DNA of 64,000 nucleotides from assembly GCF_031326205.1 (NCBI RefSeq), contig NZ_CP133721.1, positions 2,232,001-2,296,000 of the forward strand. Direction: 5' to 3'. Below, piece after piece: positions 52,029-59,578 of the stretch. The stretch is from Flavobacterium sp. 20NA77.7. GTDB lineage: Bacteria > Bacteroidota > Bacteroidia > Flavobacteriales > Flavobacteriaceae. The notes beneath the pieces are model-generated. The model was not told the DNA's origin. It did not search any database and saw nothing but the letters and a program-made list of their open reading frames with translations. Each line of letters starts with the position of its first letter. Positions within the stretch are counted from its first letter, which is position 1. The position numbers and the translations under genes were made by a program.

Positions 52029-52532
52029 CTATTTTCTTTTATACAAAGGCACTGCCGAACACGCCTCGCCAAACATGACGCTTTTAGCTACTTTTTGTAG
52101 TTTTTGTATGGCTACGGTATATACTTGGTTGGGTACGGCTTTTTTAGAACAGCCTTTTAAAATAACAGGTTTTTCAAAATAATCGGTGTAGTCGAGTTTA
52201 TTTAAAATGTCTTGATACCAGGCAATAACGGCCAACTCTTTTGTGCCGTGAATAACGTGTAAAGCAAACGGAATCAAATGAACCGCAACTAAAGCAAATG
52301 CCCAAGCGGGCAAAATGGCATCGGTAGCACAATACAAGGCTACATATTTGTCCTCGTAGTTAGACCAATCGGTGCCTTTTAATTGGGCTCTAAAATCAGC
52401 TTCTTTCAGTAAAAAACCCTCCACTAACCATTGCGAAATATCAACCTCAACCACATGACCATCTGGATAGTAATCTTCTAAATCGAATACCATCAAGGAA
52501 CTTTGCGCTACTTTGTTTACTATTTCGTCCAT
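52029..52532 (-). CDS. DUF2480 family protein
   Basis: This 167-residue protein has the DUF2480 pattern (DLEDYYPDGHVVEVDISQWL; EKPVILKGCSKK). DUF2480 genes sit at the end of suf operons in Flavobacteriia, as here. The function is unknown; the conserved GCSKK Cys is compatible with a thiol or Fe-S role, but that is speculation. It is the last gene of the SUF operon and is separated from the SufT-like gene by an ACTGC heptamer repeat. Confidence 0.88.
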   Translation of the reverse strand: MDEIVNKVAQSSLMVFDLEDYYPDGHVVEVDISQWLVEGFLLKEADFRAQLKGTDWSNYEDKYVALYCATDAILPAWAFALVAVHLIPFALHVIHGTKELAVIAWYQDILNKLDYTDYFEKPVILKGCSKKAVPNQVYTVAIQKLQKVAKSVMFGEACSAVPLYKRK

Positions 52533-52590
52533 TGTTTAGTCTCAGTTTTCAGTAAGAAGCTCAGAAACTGCTCACTGCGACTGCTTACTT
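52533..52590. repeat. ACTGC-type short tandem repeats between SufT-like gene and DUF2480
   Basis: The gap consists of recurring CAGT/ACTG words, including AAACTGC, TCACTGC and GACTGC in a row, and AGTAAG against CTTACT as a short inverted pair. It fills the space between the two cistrons. Confidence 0.65.
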
Positions 52591-52592
52591 TT

Positions 52593-52916
52593 TTAAAGCA
52601 TTCCCAATTCTAACTTCGCTTCTTCGCTCATTAAGTCTTTGCTCCATGGCGGATCAAATGTAATTTCTACTTCGCACGATTTTACGGTATCAATAGATTT
52701 TACTTTTTCTTCCACTTCTTGCGGCAACGTTTCAGCTACTGGGCAATTTGGCGATGTTAACGTCATTAAGATTTTTACATCGTTATCCTCATTAATCATT
52801 ACGTCATAGATTAATCCTAATTCGTAAATATCAACCGGAATTTCTGGGTCAAAAATTCCTTTTAATACTTTGACTACGTCTTCGCCTAAATTGATTGTAT
52901 CGTTAAATTCTTCCAT
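52593..52916 (-). CDS. SufT/MIP18-like DUF59 protein
   Basis: The protein has 107 residues from Met at 52916 (MEEFNDTINL). The longer frame from 52952 runs into the repeat element and is unlikely. Family motifs are FDPEIPVDIYELGLIYDV and LTSPNCPVAE, with the Cys in SPNCP expected to be functional. DUF59 proteins of this type (SufT, MIP18) act in Fe-S cluster maturation. It lies in the SUF operon after the GxxExxY cassette. Confidence 0.93.
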   Translation of the reverse strand: MEEFNDTINLGEDVVKVLKGIFDPEIPVDIYELGLIYDVMINEDNDVKILMTLTSPNCPVAETLPQEVEEKVKSIDTVKSCEVEITFDPPWSKDLMSEEAKLELGML

Positions 52917-52939
52917 TTTTATTTTTATTTTTATTATAA

Positions 52940-52969
52940 CCATATAAGACATATAAGGGAATATAAGTT
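52940..52969. repeat. Left arm of GxxExxY cassette (ATATAAG element)
   Basis: Three ATATAAG words (52942, 52951, 52961) with spacing 9 and 10. It is inverted relative to 53384-53413, matching at 26 of 30 positions, with an 18-of-19 core (52939-52957 against 53396-53414). The GxxExxY stop codon begins at its edge. Confidence 0.85.
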
Positions 52970-53381
52970 AATCCCAAATTTGATTATATAGATTATTAAT
53001 ATATGTTTTTTGGCCTTCTTTATAAATGTTTGTTACATTAAAATTAATTAGTAAACCCATTGGCACATTTAATAAATTCATATAAGATAAAATTTGTGCT
53101 TCAAATATAGGTTTCATTTCGGACACAGACTTTAGTTCAACAACTAACTTGTCTTCTATCAATAAGTCACATCTTAATTCCGCTTCAACTTCAATTCCTT
53201 TATATTCAATTGGTATTGATAATTCAGACTGAAATTTAATATTTCTAAGTTCAAGTTCGCGTAGTAAACATTTATGATAAACACTTTCGAGCAAACCAGG
53301 ACCAAGACTCTTGTGAACTTCAATAGCGGCTCCATTTACTTGATAAACCAAATCCTTTAAATCTTGTCTTGTATAATTCAT
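52968..53381 (-). CDS. GxxExxY protein, PDDEXK-nuclease-like
   Basis: This 137-residue protein has the GxxExxY motif at 29-35 (GPGLLESVY) and the nuclease-fold signature D72 and E82-L-K84 (CDLLIEDKLVVELKS). The family (TIGR04256) is widespread in Bacteroidota, has no established function and resembles PD-(D/E)XK nucleases. The gene interrupts the SUF operon between sufE and the SufT-like gene. Its ATG lies 2 nt inside one inverted element and its stop overlaps the other, so the coding region fills the cassette. It is not a known SUF component. Confidence 0.92.
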   Translation of the reverse strand: MNYTRQDLKDLVYQVNGAAIEVHKSLGPGLLESVYHKCLLRELELRNIKFQSELSIPIEYKGIEVEAELRCDLLIEDKLVVELKSVSEMKPIFEAQILSYMNLLNVPMGLLINFNVTNIYKEGQKTYINNLYNQIWD

Positions 53382-53383
53382 AA

Positions 53384-53413
53384 AACTTATACTTTCTTAT
53401 ATGCCTTATATGG
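53384..53413. repeat. Right arm of GxxExxY cassette (ATATAAG element, inverted)
   Basis: On the minus strand it has the same three-word structure as 52940-52969. It lies between the sufE stop at 53431 and the GxxExxY start at 53381. Confidence 0.85.
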
Positions 53414-53430
53414 TAATTAAAACTTTAAGT

Positions 53431-53850
53431 CTATTGCTTCGCTTGAAATGCCAAAGCATACATTTTTATTTGTTTAATCATTGAAACCAATCCGTTTGCT
53501 CTTGTGGGCGATAAATGTTCTTTTAAACCAATTTCATCAATAAAATCAGTATTAGCCTCCAAAATTGAACTTGGTGTTTGGTTTGAAAACGCCCGAATTA
53601 AAATGGCAATAATCCCTTTGGTTAAAATAGCATCACTATCGGCTGTGAAAACAATTTTTCCATCTTGTTCTTCGCCATGCACCCATACTTTTGATTGGCA
53701 ACCTTTAATAATATTTTCGTCAACTTTGTACTGTTCATCAATTATAGGAAGTGATTTTCCTAATTCAATGATGTATTCGTAGCGCTGCATCCAGTCGTCA
53801 AACATAGAAAACTCGTCAACAATTTCGTGTTGTATGTCTTGTATTGTCAT
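53431..53850 (-). CDS. sufE: Sulfur acceptor SufE
   Basis: This 139-residue protein has the SufE signature ENIIKGCQSKVW, with sulfur-accepting C51. It receives persulfide sulfur from the SufS cysteine desulfurase and passes it to the SufBCD scaffold. It is encoded 1 bp after the lipoprotein gene, in the SUF operon. The gene after it has been displaced by the GxxExxY cassette. Confidence 0.95.
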   Translation of the reverse strand: MTIQDIQHEIVDEFSMFDDWMQRYEYIIELGKSLPIIDEQYKVDENIIKGCQSKVWVHGEEQDGKIVFTADSDAILTKGIIAILIRAFSNQTPSSILEANTDFIDEIGLKEHLSPTRANGLVSMIKQIKMYALAFQAKQ

Positions 53851-53851
53851 G

Positions 53852-54292
53852 TTATTTTTCGGTCAATTTCAAAATTTTGTTTACCAATTTTTCTATCTCA
53901 ACAGGCGGATATCCATGATCAAAACCGTTCGCAGGATATTCTTTTCCTTCAAAAACAAAGGTAATGTTTGCATGTGCTGCGCCATCATAAAACCTTTTCT
54001 CTGTGGGCCATTTTAAGTCTTTCACTTTAGCCAAATCTACTGCTTTAGTTAGTGTAATAATTTCTTTCCAATCATCCTCAGAAAGAGTTGTTTTCTCTTG
54101 ATAATCTTTTGCGTCTCGTGAACGTGAAACAAATAACACTTGATGTTCAACTTTGATATTTAAAACAAAATTTCGCGCATTTGCCTCATAGTTAATAACC
54201 GGAATGTCTTTGTTTTGGTGATTATTCACATCGGTTTTAGTCGGTTTGCAACCCACAAAAAACAGAAGTATCAAGCTAAATAAAAATCTCAT
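53852..54292 (-). CDS. Lipoprotein of unknown function in the SUF operon
   Basis: This 146-residue protein has a lipoprotein signal (MRFLFSLILLFFVGC, lipobox Cys 15). The mature part is a compact alpha/beta domain (NITFVFEGKEYPANGFDHGYPP). I recognise no named family. It sits tightly between sufS and sufE, so it is cotranscribed with cytoplasmic Fe-S genes although it is exported. No metal-binding cluster of Cys is visible. Confidence 0.85.
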   Translation of the reverse strand: MRFLFSLILLFFVGCKPTKTDVNNHQNKDIPVINYEANARNFVLNIKVEHQVLFVSRSRDAKDYQEKTTLSEDDWKEIITLTKAVDLAKVKDLKWPTEKRFYDGAAHANITFVFEGKEYPANGFDHGYPPVEIEKLVNKILKLTEK

Positions 54293-54304
54293 ATGCTCTC
54301 TTTT

Positions 54305-55519
54305 TTAAGACAACATCATTTGCGCTTTTTTTACCGCTTCTACAAAGATATCAATTTCTTCCTTAGTATTGTAAAAAGCAAAACTTGCTCTAATAGTACC
54401 TGGAATATTGAAAAATTGCATAATAGGTTGGGCGCAATGATGGCCTGTTCTAACCGCTATCCCTAACTTATCTATAATTGTGCCAATGTCATACGGATGA
54501 ATTCCTTCGATGTTGAACGAAATGACCGAAGCTTTGTTTTCGCTCGTTCCAAAGATTTTTAACCCTTCGATTTCTTGTAATCTTTTGGTTCCGTAAAGTA
54601 ATAATTCTTGTTCGTAAGCTGCAATGTTATCAAAACCAATGGCATTCATGTAATCAATAGCGGTTCCTAAAACAATTCCGCCTTCGATGTTGGGGGTTCC
54701 GGCTTCAAATTTATGTGGTAAATCGGCATACGTAGTTTTTTCAAACGTTACCTCAGCAATCATTTCGCCTCCCCCTTGATAGGGTGGCAATTTTCGCAAC
54801 CATTCTTCTTTTCCGTATAAAATTCCAACGCCTGTTGGCCCGCACACTTTATGTCCCGAAAACACATAAAAATCACAATCCAACACTTGTACATCTGGAC
54901 GTAAATGTGGAGTGGCTTGTGCACCGTCGATTAAAACAGCCGCCCCTAATTCATGTGCTTTTTTAATGATATATTCAATAGGGTTCACCGTACCTAACGC
55001 ATTTGAAATGTGGTTCACCGCTACAATTTTCGTTTTATCGGAAAGTAAATTGTCGAATTCAGAAAGGATTAATTCTCCTTTTTCATTCATTGGGATCACC
55101 ACCAACTTTGCTCCTGTTTTTTCACATAAAAATTGCCAAGGCACAATATTGCTATGATGTTCTAAGGCAGAAACCATCACCTCATCACCTGATTTTATTA
55201 AACTTGCAAAACCATTCGCCACCAAGTTAATTCCGAAAGTCGTTCCCGAAGTAAAAATGATTTCGAAGTTATGTTTCGCATTCAAATGATCTTGAATCGT
55301 AGTTCTAGACGCTTCATAGGCATCTGTTGCCAATTGACTTAATGTGTGTACACCGCGGTGAATATTTGCGTTAATTTCGGTGTAATAGGTAGAAATAGCA
55401 TCGATAACCACTTGCGGTTTTTGCGAAGTAGCTCCGTTATCAAAATAAACCAATGGTTTCCCATTTACCTTTTGTGAAAGTATCGGAAAATCGGCTCTTA
55501 TTTTTTGGATGTCTAACAT
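54305..55519 (-). CDS. sufS: Cysteine desulfurase SufS
   Basis: This 404-residue PLP enzyme takes sulfur from cysteine as a persulfide for Fe-S assembly. Schiff-base lysine K224 is in SGHKVCGPTG and the catalytic C362 is in RTGHHCAQP, both typical of group II (SufS/CsdA) desulfurases. It is encoded between sufD and the lipoprotein gene, 18 bp after sufD. Confidence 0.97.
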   Translation of the reverse strand: MLDIQKIRADFPILSQKVNGKPLVYFDNGATSQKPQVVIDAISTYYTEINANIHRGVHTLSQLATDAYEASRTTIQDHLNAKHNFEIIFTSGTTFGINLVANGFASLIKSGDEVMVSALEHHSNIVPWQFLCEKTGAKLVVIPMNEKGELILSEFDNLLSDKTKIVAVNHISNALGTVNPIEYIIKKAHELGAAVLIDGAQATPHLRPDVQVLDCDFYVFSGHKVCGPTGVGILYGKEEWLRKLPPYQGGGEMIAEVTFEKTTYADLPHKFEAGTPNIEGGIVLGTAIDYMNAIGFDNIAAYEQELLLYGTKRLQEIEGLKIFGTSENKASVISFNIEGIHPYDIGTIIDKLGIAVRTGHHCAQPIMQFFNIPGTIRASFAFYNTKEEIDIFVEAVKKAQMMLS

Positions 55520-55537
55520 ATTTCTACGATTTATTTT

Positions 55538-56854
55538 TTACAAATCAAATCCCATATTTACCCCTAATTTATCAGCGATAATACGAGCAATTTTTGCTTT
55601 TAATTCTGGAATTTTTACACTGTTGGTTACTTCGCTGGTAAATGCATACATCAATAAAGCTTTGGCTTCTTTTTTAGGAATTCCACGTTGTTGCATGTAA
55701 AACATCGCACTTTCATCTAATTGTCCAATGGTACAACCGTGTGAACATTTTACATCATCGGCAAAAATTTCCAATTGTGGTTTTGCATTAATCGTTGCTT
55801 TATCACCAATTAAAATATTATTATTTTGTTGGAATGCATCGGTTTTTTGCGCTTCTTTTTCTACGAAGATTTTTCCGTTGAAAACGCCTGTTGAACTATC
55901 ATGCAAAATTGTTTTATAGTTTTGATGGCTTTCGCAATTTGGTGTAGCGTGTTGCACTAACGTATAATGATCTACGTGTTGTTTGTCGCCAATAATAGTA
56001 ATTCCTTTTAAAGTTGAATCGATTCGTTCCCCTTGATGATAGAAATTCAAGTTGTTTCTTGTGATGTTTCCGCCAAATGAAAACGTATGCACCGCCACTC
56101 TACTCTCTTGATTTTGAGCAATGTAGGTGTTGTCGATCAAATTAGCAGTTTGCACATCGTTTTGAATTTTGTAATAATCCACAATCGCACGTTTTTGAGC
56201 AAAAATTTCAGTAACCGAATTCGTTAAAACCGGATTTGAATTCAAACTTTGATGACGCTCTACAATTTGCACGTGCGCATTTTCGCCAACAATGACTAAA
56301 TTTCGAGGTTGCACCATTAAAGCCGCTTCGGTTCCTGTAGAAAAATAAATAATTTCAATCGGTTTTTCTACTACTTTACTTTTCGGAATGTTGATATAGG
56401 CGCCTTCCAATGAAAAAGCCGTATTTAAAGACGTTAAACTTTCTTCTTTACTCGCAATTTGATTGAAATAACTATCAATTACCATTTTATATTTAGGCTT
56501 TGTCAATGCCGAAGACATCAAACAAACATCTAAACCATCATGTGTAGTTGAAGACAAAAACGAACTGAAAATGCCGTCAATGAAAACCACTTTATAGGTG
56601 TCAATTTCGTGTAAGAAATACTTTTTTACATCTTTAAATTCGATAGCATTATCTTTCTTTGGAAACACCGAAAAATCATTTTTCAAAATCGCATTTAACG
56701 ACGTGTATTTCCAAGCTTCCTCTTTTTTTGTGGGGAAACCTTTGTTTTCGAAATTTTTTATGGCATTGCTTCTTACCTCATGAAGTTCAGAATGGGTATC
56801 AATCTTTTCTTCAAAAGCCATGAAGGAAGCTAATAATTTATCTTTTAATTCCAT
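55538..56854 (-). CDS. sufD: Fe-S scaffold protein SufD
   Basis: The protein has 438 residues from Met at 56854 (MELKDKLLASF). A longer frame begins at 56881 inside the inverted repeat and is rejected. The right-handed beta-helix SufB/SufD core ends with DVKCSHGCTIGQLDESAMFY and QQRGIPKKEAKALL. SufD pairs with SufB and SufC in the SufBC2D scaffold. One arm of the four-helix-bundle cassette lies 15 bp before its start codon. Confidence 0.95.
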   Translation of the reverse strand: MELKDKLLASFMAFEEKIDTHSELHEVRSNAIKNFENKGFPTKKEEAWKYTSLNAILKNDFSVFPKKDNAIEFKDVKKYFLHEIDTYKVVFIDGIFSSFLSSTTHDGLDVCLMSSALTKPKYKMVIDSYFNQIASKEESLTSLNTAFSLEGAYINIPKSKVVEKPIEIIYFSTGTEAALMVQPRNLVIVGENAHVQIVERHQSLNSNPVLTNSVTEIFAQKRAIVDYYKIQNDVQTANLIDNTYIAQNQESRVAVHTFSFGGNITRNNLNFYHQGERIDSTLKGITIIGDKQHVDHYTLVQHATPNCESHQNYKTILHDSSTGVFNGKIFVEKEAQKTDAFQQNNNILIGDKATINAKPQLEIFADDVKCSHGCTIGQLDESAMFYMQQRGIPKKEAKALLMYAFTSEVTNSVKIPELKAKIARIIADKLGVNMGFDL

Positions 56855-56865
56855 TTTTATTATCT

Positions 56866-56892
56866 TAAAGTCGAAAGTCAAAAGTCTTAAAG
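56866..56892. repeat. Inner arm of four-helix-bundle cassette (heptamer repeat)
   Basis: Three tandem heptamers (TAAAGTC, GAAAGTC, AAAAGTC) and a tail. Positions 56870-56892 are a perfect 23-nt inverted copy of 57316-57338. Confidence 0.92.
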
Positions 56893-56939
56893 ACTTGCGT
56901 TATCGACAAATTTTATTTTTAAAATCGTTATATAATAAT

Positions 56940-57308
56940 TTACGATTTTGGATTTAAATATTTTATAAAACCACTTAAAAGTCTGGATATTTCAGAAACA
57001 GATTCTAATAGTTCTTCAAATTCTTGTTTTGTTATATATTCTAAATCAAATGCTAAATATAATTGTGAACGAACTTCTCCGGCAGAAGCTTTTGAAACAT
57101 ATAAAAAGTAAATAAATTCTTTATCTGTATTTCTTTCAAATCCTTCTGCAATATTAGATGATATAGAAATTGAAGCTCGTCTAATTTGTCTTACAAAATA
57201 GTTATCTTTTTTAAAATTTAAATTTTCTGTAATTTGATAAATTCGTTTATTAAAAATTCTTGCCTTTTGCCATGAATTAATTTCTTCGAATGAATTAAAT
57301 TTTCCCAT
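56940..57308 (-). CDS. Four-helix-bundle protein, 23S rRNA intervening-sequence family
   Basis: This 122-residue helical protein has the family signature SISSNIAEGFER at about 47-58 and four amphipathic helices. The family (PF05635, TIGR02436) is named from proteins encoded in intervening sequences of 23S rRNA genes; the function is unknown. Here the gene lies between sufC and sufD inside the SUF operon, bounded by perfect 23-nt inverted repeats 7 bp before its ATG and 47 bp after its stop. It is a foreign insertion rather than a SUF component. Confidence 0.92.
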   Translation of the reverse strand: MGKFNSFEEINSWQKARIFNKRIYQITENLNFKKDNYFVRQIRRASISISSNIAEGFERNTDKEFIYFLYVSKASAGEVRSQLYLAFDLEYITKQEFEELLESVSEISRLLSGFIKYLNPKS

Positions 57309-57315
57309 CTTTAAA

Positions 57316-57338
57316 CTTTAAGACTTTTGACTTTCGAC
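57316..57338. repeat. Outer arm of four-helix-bundle cassette, overlapping the sufC end
   Basis: The perfect inverted partner of 56870-56892. It contains the last six sense codons and stop codon of sufC (VESQKS). Confidence 0.92.
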
Positions 57339-58082
57339 TATTTCACTTTTAATCCAATCGTAACCTTTTTCTTCAAGTTCTAATGCTAAATCTGCTCCGC
57401 CTGTTTTTACGATTTTTCCGTCCATTAATACGTGAACGAAATCAGGAACGATATAATCTAACAAACGTTGGTAGTGCGTAATGACTAACACCGCGTTGTT
57501 TTCGTTTTTCAATTTATTCACTCCGTTAGCAACAATTCGCAACGCATCGATATCTAAACCGGAATCGGTTTCGTCCAAAATTGCGATTTTTGGTTCCAAC
57601 ATTGCCATTTGGAAAATTTCATTACGTTTCTTTTCACCACCCGAAAAACCTTCGTTTAGCGAACGCGACAAAAATTTTCGATCCATTTCTAATAATTCTG
57701 ATTTTTCGCGAATTAATTTCAGCATTTCGTTGGCTGGCATTTCGTCTTGCTTGTTTGCTTTACGTTTTTCGTTGATTGCGGTTTTAATGAAATTCGTTAC
57801 CGAAACGCCTGGAATTTCTACAGGATATTGAAACGATAAGAAAACACCTTTGTGTGCTCTTTCTTCTGGCGCTAATTCTGAAATTTCTTCTCCGTCCAAA
57901 AAGATTTCGCCTTCAGAAACTTCGTAATTTTCATTTCCAGCAATGATTGAAGATAAAGTAGATTTTCCGGCACCATTTGGTCCCATAATCGCATGTACTT
58001 CTCCTGCTTTAATTTCAAGGTTGATTCCTTTTAATATTTCTTTGTCTTCAACAGACGCGTGTAAATTTTTAATGCTTAACAT
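57318..58082 (-). CDS. sufC: Fe-S assembly ATPase SufC
   Basis: This 254-residue ABC-type ATPase drives the SufBC2D scaffold. Walker A is GPNGAGKST at 34-42, the signature is [12 protein letters not shown] and Walker B is [11 protein letters not shown]. The extreme C-terminus (VESQKS) is encoded by the inverted-repeat arm of the adjoining cassette, so the tail was probably rewritten when the repeat arrived. It lies between sufB and the four-helix-bundle gene. Confidence 0.97.
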
Positions 58083-58099
58083 CTTTTTTTTATTTTAAA

Positions 58100-58130
58100 C
58101 CATTTAAGGCACATAAGTTCATATAAGTTC
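58100..58130. repeat. Single ATATAAG-type element between sufB and sufC
   Basis: It has the same three-word structure and 9/10 spacing as the GxxExxY cassette arms and matches 52940-52970 at about 24 of 31 positions. No inverted partner or gene accompanies it. Confidence 0.75.
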
Positions 58131-59578
58131 TATCCAACACTTCCTTCTAACGAAATTTCCAACAATTTCTGTGCTTCTACCGCAAATTCCATTGGTAATT
58201 TATTCAATACTTCTTTGCTGAATCCATTTACGATTAAGGCAATGGCTTTTTCGGTTGGAATTCCTCGTTGGTTACAATAAAACACTTGATCTTCTCCAAT
58301 TTTTGAAGTCGTTGCTTCGTGTTCAATTTTTGCCGAAGCATTTTTACTTTCGATATACGGAAATGTATGCGCGCCACAATTATTTCCCATTAAAAGCGAA
58401 TCACATTGAGAGAAGTTACGCGCGTTTTCGGCTCTTGCGCCAATTTGGACTAATCCTCTATAACTGTTTTGTGATTTTCCTGCTGAAATTCCTTTAGAGA
58501 TGATCGTCGATTTGGTGTTTTTACCCAAGTGAATCATCTTGGTTCCTGTATCGGCTTGCTGGAAATTATTGGTAACGGCAATCGAATAAAATTCGCCAAT
58601 TGAATTATCGCCTTTCAACACACAAGAAGGATATTTCCAAGTTACCGCCGAACCTGTTTCTACTTGTGTCCAAGAAATTTTAGCGTTTTTCTCGCACAAA
58701 CCTCTTTTGGTTACGAAATTATAAACGCCTCCTTTGCCTTCTTTGTTTCCAGGATACCAGTTTTGCACCGTTGAATATTTGATTTCGGCTCCGTCCAAAG
58801 CGATTAATTCTACAACGGCAGCGTGTAATTGATTTTCATCACGACTTGGAGCGGTACACCCTTCCAAATAAGAAACATAGCTATCTTCATCAGCCACCAA
58901 TAACGTTCTTTCAAACTGACCCGTTCCACCTTGATTAATTCTAAAATACGTTGATAATTCCATTGGACATTTTACCCCTTTTGGAATGTAACAGAAACTT
59001 CCATCTGAAAAAACAGCCGAATTTAAAGCCGCGTAAAAATTATCTTTCATCGGAACAACAGTCCCTAAATGTTTACGAACTAATTCTGGATGTTCTTTGA
59101 TAGCTTCCGAAATCGAACAGAAAATAATGCCTTTTTCGTTTAATGTTTTCTTGAAAGTAGTTGCCACAGAAACCGAATCTACGACGATATCAATCGCCAC
59201 ATTATTCATTTTCTTTTGCTCGTCTACCGAAATTCCTAACTTTTTATACATCGCTAAAAGTTCTGGATCAACATCTTCTAGTTTTTTATTCGGATCAGCT
59301 TTTTTTGGTGCTGAATAATAGGAAATGGCCTGAAAATCGGGTTTTTCATAATGTACGTTTGCCCATTCTGGTTCAATCATTTCTTGCCACGCTCTAAACG
59401 CTTCCAAACGCCATTCGGTCATCCATTCTGGCTCGTCTTTTTTCTTTGAAATAGCACGAACAATGTCTTCATTTAACCCAATAGGAAACGTTTCCGAGTC
59501 TAATTCGGTATAAAATCCGTATTCGTATTCTTTATTTTCTAATTCAACTTTTAAGTCGTCCTCAGTATATTTGCTCAT
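58130..59578 (-). CDS. sufB: Fe-S scaffold protein SufB
   Basis: This 482-residue core scaffold protein has the SufB end region [44 protein letters not shown], and the central motif [22 protein letters not shown]. It forms the cluster-building site with SufD and SufC. It follows sufA across a 129-bp gap filled by C/G-rich inverted repeats. A lone ATATAAG element overlaps its stop. Confidence 0.97.

Follow-up and report, generated by a model that had tools for sequence, protein, structure and literature searches.

A PF05635 gene between inverted short-repeat arrays at the sufC-sufD junction of a Flavobacterium genome: a candidate mobile cassette

The window analysed here, a 64-kb stretch of the Flavobacterium sp. 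20NA77.7 genome (64,000 nt, contig NZ_CP133721.1, positions 2,232,001 to 2,296,000), holds a suf operon on its reverse strand. Read in the sense of transcription, sufB (58130..59578) is followed by sufC (57318..58082), sufD (55538..56854, its ATG placed at 56854 by homology) and sufS (54305..55519), with SufE-like and SufA-like genes also in the surroundings. Between sufC and sufD, named by TIGR01978 and TIGR01981 in agreement with the earlier placing of the element, lies a gene on the same strand for a 122-aa four-helix-bundle protein of the 23S rRNA intervening-sequence (IVS) family (PF05635/TIGR02436; 56940..57308). This gene is enclosed by two arms of 24 nt that are 100% complementary and have 423 nt between them, so the exact inverted repeat that the sequence-only reading had given as 23 nt is real and one base longer. 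In mRNA sense, the 5′ arm (57316..57339, reverse strand) overlaps the last 22 nt of sufC and provides its stop codon; the SufC C-terminus, which runs into this arm, is unlike that of its relatives. The 3′ arm (56869..56892, reverse strand) is the 5′ arm in exact reverse complement and stops 14 nt ahead of the sufD ATG. The whole window has no other exact inverted repeat that reaches 18 nt and spans less than 700 nt, the runner-up being a 17-nt palindrome without a loop.

The family assignment of the enclosed gene was borne out by full-length profile matches above the curated cut-offs (PF05635, E = 2.2e-35; TIGR02436, E = 5.5e-36). A coding artefact was considered and rejected, as the 122-aa open reading frame matches the family in full. 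At E ≤ 0.001, the Pfam matches of the protein were just PF05635 and, weakly, bAvd, with no nuclease or transposase domain, and the NCBIfam matches were four-helix-bundle, hypothetical-protein and Avd models. A solved relative is a pentamer, the PDB relative 2gsc is a Xanthomonas protein, and the fold resembles that of Avd from the diversity-generating (DGR) ribonucleoprotein. PF05635 was termed functionally uncharacterised in a 2024 paper (PMC11270868). Searches of phage records with the window's protein and of plasmid records with the DNA of 55400-58200 returned nothing, and Rfam gave no match at E ≤ 0.5 on 52500-59000.

The arms are not arbitrary sequence: they consist of tandem copies of AGTC-N-(T)AA, a unit of 7/8 nt. 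Across 53 loci with AGTC-type arms, the spacing from one AGTC to the next was mostly 7 nt (106 cases) or 8 nt (69 cases). Tandem 7-nt units, the defining trait of heptanucleotide (STRR-type) repeats, were found both in these AGTC-type loci and in the cyanobacterial loci described below.

A search of the complete genome (2.33 Mb, one contig), as had been proposed from the sequence alone, revealed five more PF05635 genes and dispersed copies of the arms. All six genes sit between inverted arrays of short units, and the six units differ (AGTCGAA, GTTGTTG, AGTGATT, AGTCACAGTTTTC, AGTAGCAA type and GATGTTT type). Arm scores at the six copies were 13-29, versus 7-11 in flanks 450-560 nt further out. 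The five other copies occupy the junctions between the CCA/polyA polymerase gene and ctaA, between gmk and a nadD-like gene, between two metH-type parts, between ruvB and queG, and a site upstream of ssb. At the third of these (L003), the two metH-type parts on either side of the PF05635 gene are the homocysteine methyltransferase and the pterin/B12 part. For Flavobacterium columnare, a gmk-four helix bundle-nadD arrangement is listed within predicted phage regions (PMC5524665).

To place these copies among their relatives, we gathered 115 loci from the genus (the six own copies, 29 returned by the genus search and 80 more chosen from among its listed matches, which were ordered by score) and 80 further named loci fetched with the window's protein. 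Of these 195 loci, 193 were placed in the protein tree and 190 had sufficient flanking sequence for comparison; within the genus, PF05635 was present in 60 of 61 genomes. Matching inverted arms with a score of at least 14 were found in 146 of the 190 loci versus one of 185 control flanks, and at a score of at least 12 the counts were 169/190 versus 4/185. The genus and named subsets agreed (87/113 and 59/77 at a score of at least 14), and the repeat period of the arms was 7/8 nt. Weak arms were seen in 44 of the 190 loci (score below 14). Relatives carrying the gene without flanking repeats, which the sequence-only reading had named as the finding that would count against it, thus exist as a minority only, 21 of the 190 loci scoring below 12. 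Mispaired flanks were unsuitable as a control, with just 13 of 112 loci above their 99th percentile, because related loci have units in common; shifted sites, shuffles and distal flanks were used instead, and 84/112 and 80/112 loci lay above the 99th percentile of the shifted-site and shuffle controls, respectively. A chance origin of the arms was rejected on their scores against control flanks.

The layout recurs in Bacteroidota, in Cyanobacteriota and in single loci of other phyla. Plasmid records were searched with a Nostoc protein (31 records) and with the window's protein (10 records), and 23 plasmid loci (Cyanobacteriota, Riemerella, Azospirillum and Gemmatirosa) were fetched, some of them near-copies. 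Fourteen of the 23 had an arm score of at least 14, versus none of the 23 control flanks, and nine scored below 14; the Azospirillum locus reached 26, and the Gemmatirosa locus, at 7, did not fit. Cyanobacterial plasmid loci showed excess self-match at lag 7 (+0.169) and lag 14 (+0.149), and heptanucleotide-type arrays adjoin most of the cyanobacterial plasmid PF05635 genes examined. In Nostoc edaphicum, for instance, a PF05635 gene with (AGTAGGG)n...(CCCTACT)n around it separates two genes for ribonucleotide reductase. Other PF05635 genes (L302, L313 and L307) are part of CRISPR operons on cyanobacterial plasmids, twice between cas6 and cas4 (on a Pseudanabaena and an Anabaena plasmid) and once between cas10/cmr2 and cmr3; the arms of the Pseudanabaena locus (L302) form no simple inverted pair by score (7). 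AGTC- or GGTC-type arms accompany 50-53% identical proteins on Planctomycetota and Nitrospira contigs from metagenome-assembled genomes (MAGs; L148, L154 and L155), whose labels may be wrong.

We then compared arm units with protein relatedness, counting two loci as lying at different places when their outer flanks had no common tblastx match. A first measure (5-mer TF-IDF, 112 loci) gave a rho of -0.11, which is inside the permutation range (minimum -0.117). A second, based on 4-mer profiles of 190 loci, gave -0.226 versus -0.024 for distal flanks, and with it a locus's own right arm ranked first in just 17 of the 190 loci and within the top 5% in 71. As k-mers fail on degenerate units, an alignment score was adopted as the third measure. 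Over 15,465 different-place pairs, arm similarity fell with protein distance (rho -0.303, the minimum of 300 permutations being -0.070), and the control flanks 450-560 nt out gave +0.005. With rising protein distance, the fraction of pairs with an arm score of at least 18 was 0.776, 0.411, 0.166, 0.117, 0.020 and 0.001, versus at most 0.0056 in the control; 78% of the 58 pairs at a protein distance below 0.2 reached that score, and ~0.1% or fewer did so beyond 0.55. Within loci, the two arms were somewhat more like each other than like same-clade arms elsewhere (65 of 84 cases, medians 19 and 15.3). At the sufC-sufD junction alone, AGTC arms go with proteins that share 77-88% identity with the window's (three loci) and GTTTCA-type arms with proteins that share 42% (three loci). 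Vertical co-inheritance of gene and arms could be responsible for part of this covariation.

The sufC-sufD junction was compared in 25 genomes of the genus, the own genome included: seven carry the gene, four are clean, and 14 have 47-88 nt from stop to start. In three clean junctions (L051-L053, with SufD 98, 96 and 88% identical), the sufC stop and the sufD start are 1 nt apart, and in the fourth (L055) the distance, read by eye, is 3 nt. Empty sites, which the sequence-only reading had proposed to look for, thus exist: the element is absent from the two closest relatives examined. The junctions are not base-precise. By eye, empty and filled sites showed no clear target-site duplication at sufC-sufD. 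A 7-nt direct repeat, AAAGAGT, lies on either side of the element near ssb (L005) and is a possible target duplication. At the sites of L003 and L005, three relatives have no room for the gene, and the flanks of L003 lie closer together in relatives, without the gene. One of these three relatives (G009) has, at another place, a gene whose DNA is 73% identical to that of L005 and whose arms are of the same type, together with several gene-less arrays or hairpins of that type.

Gene-less arrays are a recurrent feature. A shuffle test of the 14 gene-less sufC-sufD junctions found an inverted repeat in 10 (p ≤ 0.035), a borderline case in one (p = 0.055) and none in three; their units vary by genome, and some are in common. 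Two examples in the own genome sit in frame within coding sequences, an AGTC hairpin in the editing domain of leuS (L011, G000:C1:164867) and an AGTC array in alaS (L007, G000:C1:532460), each missing from five relatives. A scan of 20 intergenic gaps in the window for gene-less hairpins found four short palindromes and no such array. Of the 61 genomes of the genus, 33 contain an exact AGTCNAAAGTCNAAAGTC. One genome (G016) has 321 exact AGTC-array matches and two PF05635 genes in its suf operon (L356 and others), a strong natural expansion.

The number of AGTC arrays follows the presence of the cognate gene, with a median of 7 in the 13 genomes that have a gene at least 60% identical to the window's (G060 with fragments only) versus 0 in the other 48 (p = 1.6e-4, and p = 0.003 when two are deducted to allow for the arms of the element itself), and the reversed-pattern control does not show this (p = 0.35). 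Exceptions exist on both sides: G024 has the gene and no exact array, and AGTC arrays are found in 21 of the 48 gene-free genomes (16 in G009). One could read the arrays as independent intergenic repeats, that is, simple-sequence or palindromic selfish DNA, with the gene as a passenger that is inherited jointly with them and recognises nothing. Such a reading would account for how common gene-less arrays and hairpins are, for the 21 genomes with AGTC arrays and no cognate gene, and for an unrelated family, GxxExxY (see below), that is also found inside inverted short-repeat arms. We consider it unlikely, as the array number tracks the gene, and as the close pairs printed for different places have the unit in common but differ in variable base and array length, which is not expected from plain copying.

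The orientation of the gene is strongly biased. It has the sense of both neighbours in 175 of 186 callable genes (seven more were unclear) and opposes both in two; when one gene was taken per location cluster (35 clusters), the counts were 29 of 34 in the same sense and one against. This bias fits read-through expression and insertion through RNA equally well. The PF05635 gene of Nostoc edaphicum is opposite to its neighbours. The arms themselves have a polarity: of 189 loci, 98 have two arms that are G-rich in the same sense (5′ arm G-type), four have two C-rich arms, and the others are mixed.

In or beside suf operons we found 72 of the 193 loci, with the suf matches in the gene's sense, at four junctions (sufC-sufD 41, sufA-sufB 18, sufB-sufC 7 and sufS-sufE 3; three more matched on one side only), a count that is no frequency because the locus set is biased to the window's clade. 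What the count does demonstrate is that genes related to each other can be found at four junctions of a single operon. In the largest location cluster, 67 of 70 loci are suf loci, and such long residence in the suf operon argues against frequent jumping. These numbers, along with the reach of the 5′ arm into sufC and the closeness of the 3′ arm to the sufD start, would suit a domesticated regulatory module, in which the protein adjusts suf expression by binding the arm hairpin of the transcript that encodes it. However, the suf count is inflated by the 80 loci fetched with the window's own protein, the five other copies in this genome lie elsewhere than suf, and the closest relatives do without the element and without a visible substitute, so that we regard a regulatory role of this kind as very unlikely.

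The sequence-only reading had also proposed that the arms act at the RNA level, pairing in the suf mRNA to be cut by RNase III, with loss of the insert or separation of the sufC message from that of sufD. In silico, a 24-bp stem is predicted in both the minimum-energy and the centroid structures (z = -4.1), with its base between the sufC end and the sufD start. The same-sense bias and the Avd-like fold are compatible with this proposal, as is the rRNA IVS of Coxiella, which has a protein of the same family and was excised by RNase III in vitro (PMC4990558). But G-U-compatible mismatches between arms, which stems maintained for pairing in the transcript should favour, are not in excess (80 vs 97 dereplicated, 123 vs 164 overall), and the arms agree in their short motifs and not at every base (identity 0.82 in the 146 loci scoring at least 14). 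What is conserved therefore looks like the unit, not the pairing. This favours a protein that recognises the unit, though a part for RNA is conceivable. Gene-less arrays, some of them on one strand only, and the in-frame arrays in leuS and alaS, which need no excision, also speak against processing of the message, and we judge it improbable here. The part of the earlier claim that fared well is the kind of element: a PF05635 gene between complementary arms, absent from the closest relatives, supports an IVS-like element in a protein-coding operon.

Many relatives in several bacterial groups have a similar layout, each with its own repeats, a sign that the gene and its repeats may travel together as a unit. 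We think it somewhat probable that the element is a mobile or selfish cassette whose PF05635 protein recognises its own repeat family, in the manner of REP/RAYT systems and without a known transposase. It would then represent a widespread type, in which inverted arrays of 7-9 nt tandem units enclose a PF05635 gene, and this copy either entered the sufC-sufD junction in sense orientation after the split from the nearest relatives or was lost from those relatives. Its gene would presumably be expressed by read-through from the suf operon, and what the protein recognises is most likely the repeat unit of the arms around its gene, in this case AGTC-N-(T)AA. It may then act in trans on gene-less arrays and mini-hairpins with that unit, which would spread as non-autonomous relatives, at times in frame into genes. 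We infer from these comparisons that the protein binds the arms and drives their spread, and likewise the way in which strands would be cut or copied.

Several known systems resemble the cassette in part. It shares with 23S rRNA IVSs that carry a PF05635/S23p ORF both the protein family and the placing of the ORF between complementary arms. It differs in its location, which is a protein-coding operon and not rRNA, in the covariation of arm unit and protein, and in the recurrence of the unit as gene-less arrays. In REP/RAYT systems, the repeat class matches the protein class. Like REPtrons, the cassette has a gene between inverted repeats that also occur alone; RAYT, however, is an HUH tyrosine transposase and REP sequences are GTAG-tagged palindromes, whereas the protein here matches PF05635 and weakly bAvd, and its arms are tandem units of 7-9 nt. 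Gene-less copies of the REPtron repeats are dispersed, some of them inside genes (PMC3733652). In the Coxiella rRNA IVS, tandem heptameric repeats (GACAGAT) lie ahead of the ORF and the stem measures 28 bp; the protein is probably not produced, and the origin of rRNA intervening sequences is termed unclear in the same paper (PMC4990558).

Tandem 7-nt units are also what the arms have in common with the heptameric/STRR repeats of Nostoc, Calothrix and Xanthomonas; unlike those repeats, for which the passages concerned in PMC4692102 name no protein partner, the arrays here enclose a gene that varies in type with the unit. Convergent heptameric inverted pairs are numerous in Xanthomonas, and the GGGGA(C/T)T repeats of Nostoc PCC 7120 are described as seldom forming inverted pairs and as not found on its plasmids (PMC4692102). 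This description of the Nostoc repeats, like the probable lack of the Coxiella protein, tells against the cassette reading. Nostoc intergenic repeats, some of them heptamer-like, are suspected to stem from transposition (PMC2408588), and the 7-nt motifs of the Nostoc trnL hairpin are given as of unknown origin (PMC4476775). The leuS hairpin recalls Rickettsia palindromic elements (RPE), short palindromes inserted in frame in genes (PMC10969869), but differs from RPE and other MITEs in that it belongs to short-unit arrays with a candidate partner gene in the same genome. Unlike a DGR with its Avd, the one reverse transcriptase-like match in the genome (L299, G000:C1:921418; PF00078, 33.5 bits, in a 666-aa frame) lies far from the PF05635 gene (C1:2288970).

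By its location the element is no IVS and by its protein no REPtron; we class it as a variant of the IVS/PF05635 kind that may be the visible part of a new class. More tentatively, and as a possibility that we hold short of probable, PF05635 proteins in general could be the dedicated partners of bacterial heptanucleotide-type arrays. An Avd-like pentamer would recognise the array and spread it with no classical transposase, perhaps by way of RNA or of a single-stranded stage and with the help of a polymerase or reverse transcriptase from another system. On that view, a single class of element would surface as rRNA IVSs, as the heptameric repeats of cyanobacteria and Xanthomonas, as the 7-nt trnL intron hairpins of Nostoc and as palindromes that lie in frame in genes. 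Among the matches listed for open-licence papers, no title or abstract linked PF05635 genes in general to flanking short-repeat arms. Joining PF05635 and heptameric repeats would give each a testable partner, with the match of protein and repeat readable from the arms; it would place rRNA intervening sequences in a wider element family, and it would offer a candidate agent for the in-frame entry of short palindromes into coding genes.

A second gene in the same operon, for a GxxExxY protein (TIGR04256; PF13366, PD-(D/E)XK; 52968..53381, reverse strand), has inverted short-repeat arms of its own and is a separate element of a parallel type. Its arms (~52940-52969 and 53384-53413) are inverted CATATAAG-type arrays. 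The 29 GxxExxY loci of the genus have strong inverted arms, with a median score of 24 versus 10 in distal flanks, many of them of other unit types; covariation of arm and protein among these 29 loci was not clean, as the closest pairs share distal flanks too. The spacer between sufC and sufB (58100-58129) holds a gene-less array of the same CATATAAG type as that beside the GxxExxY gene.
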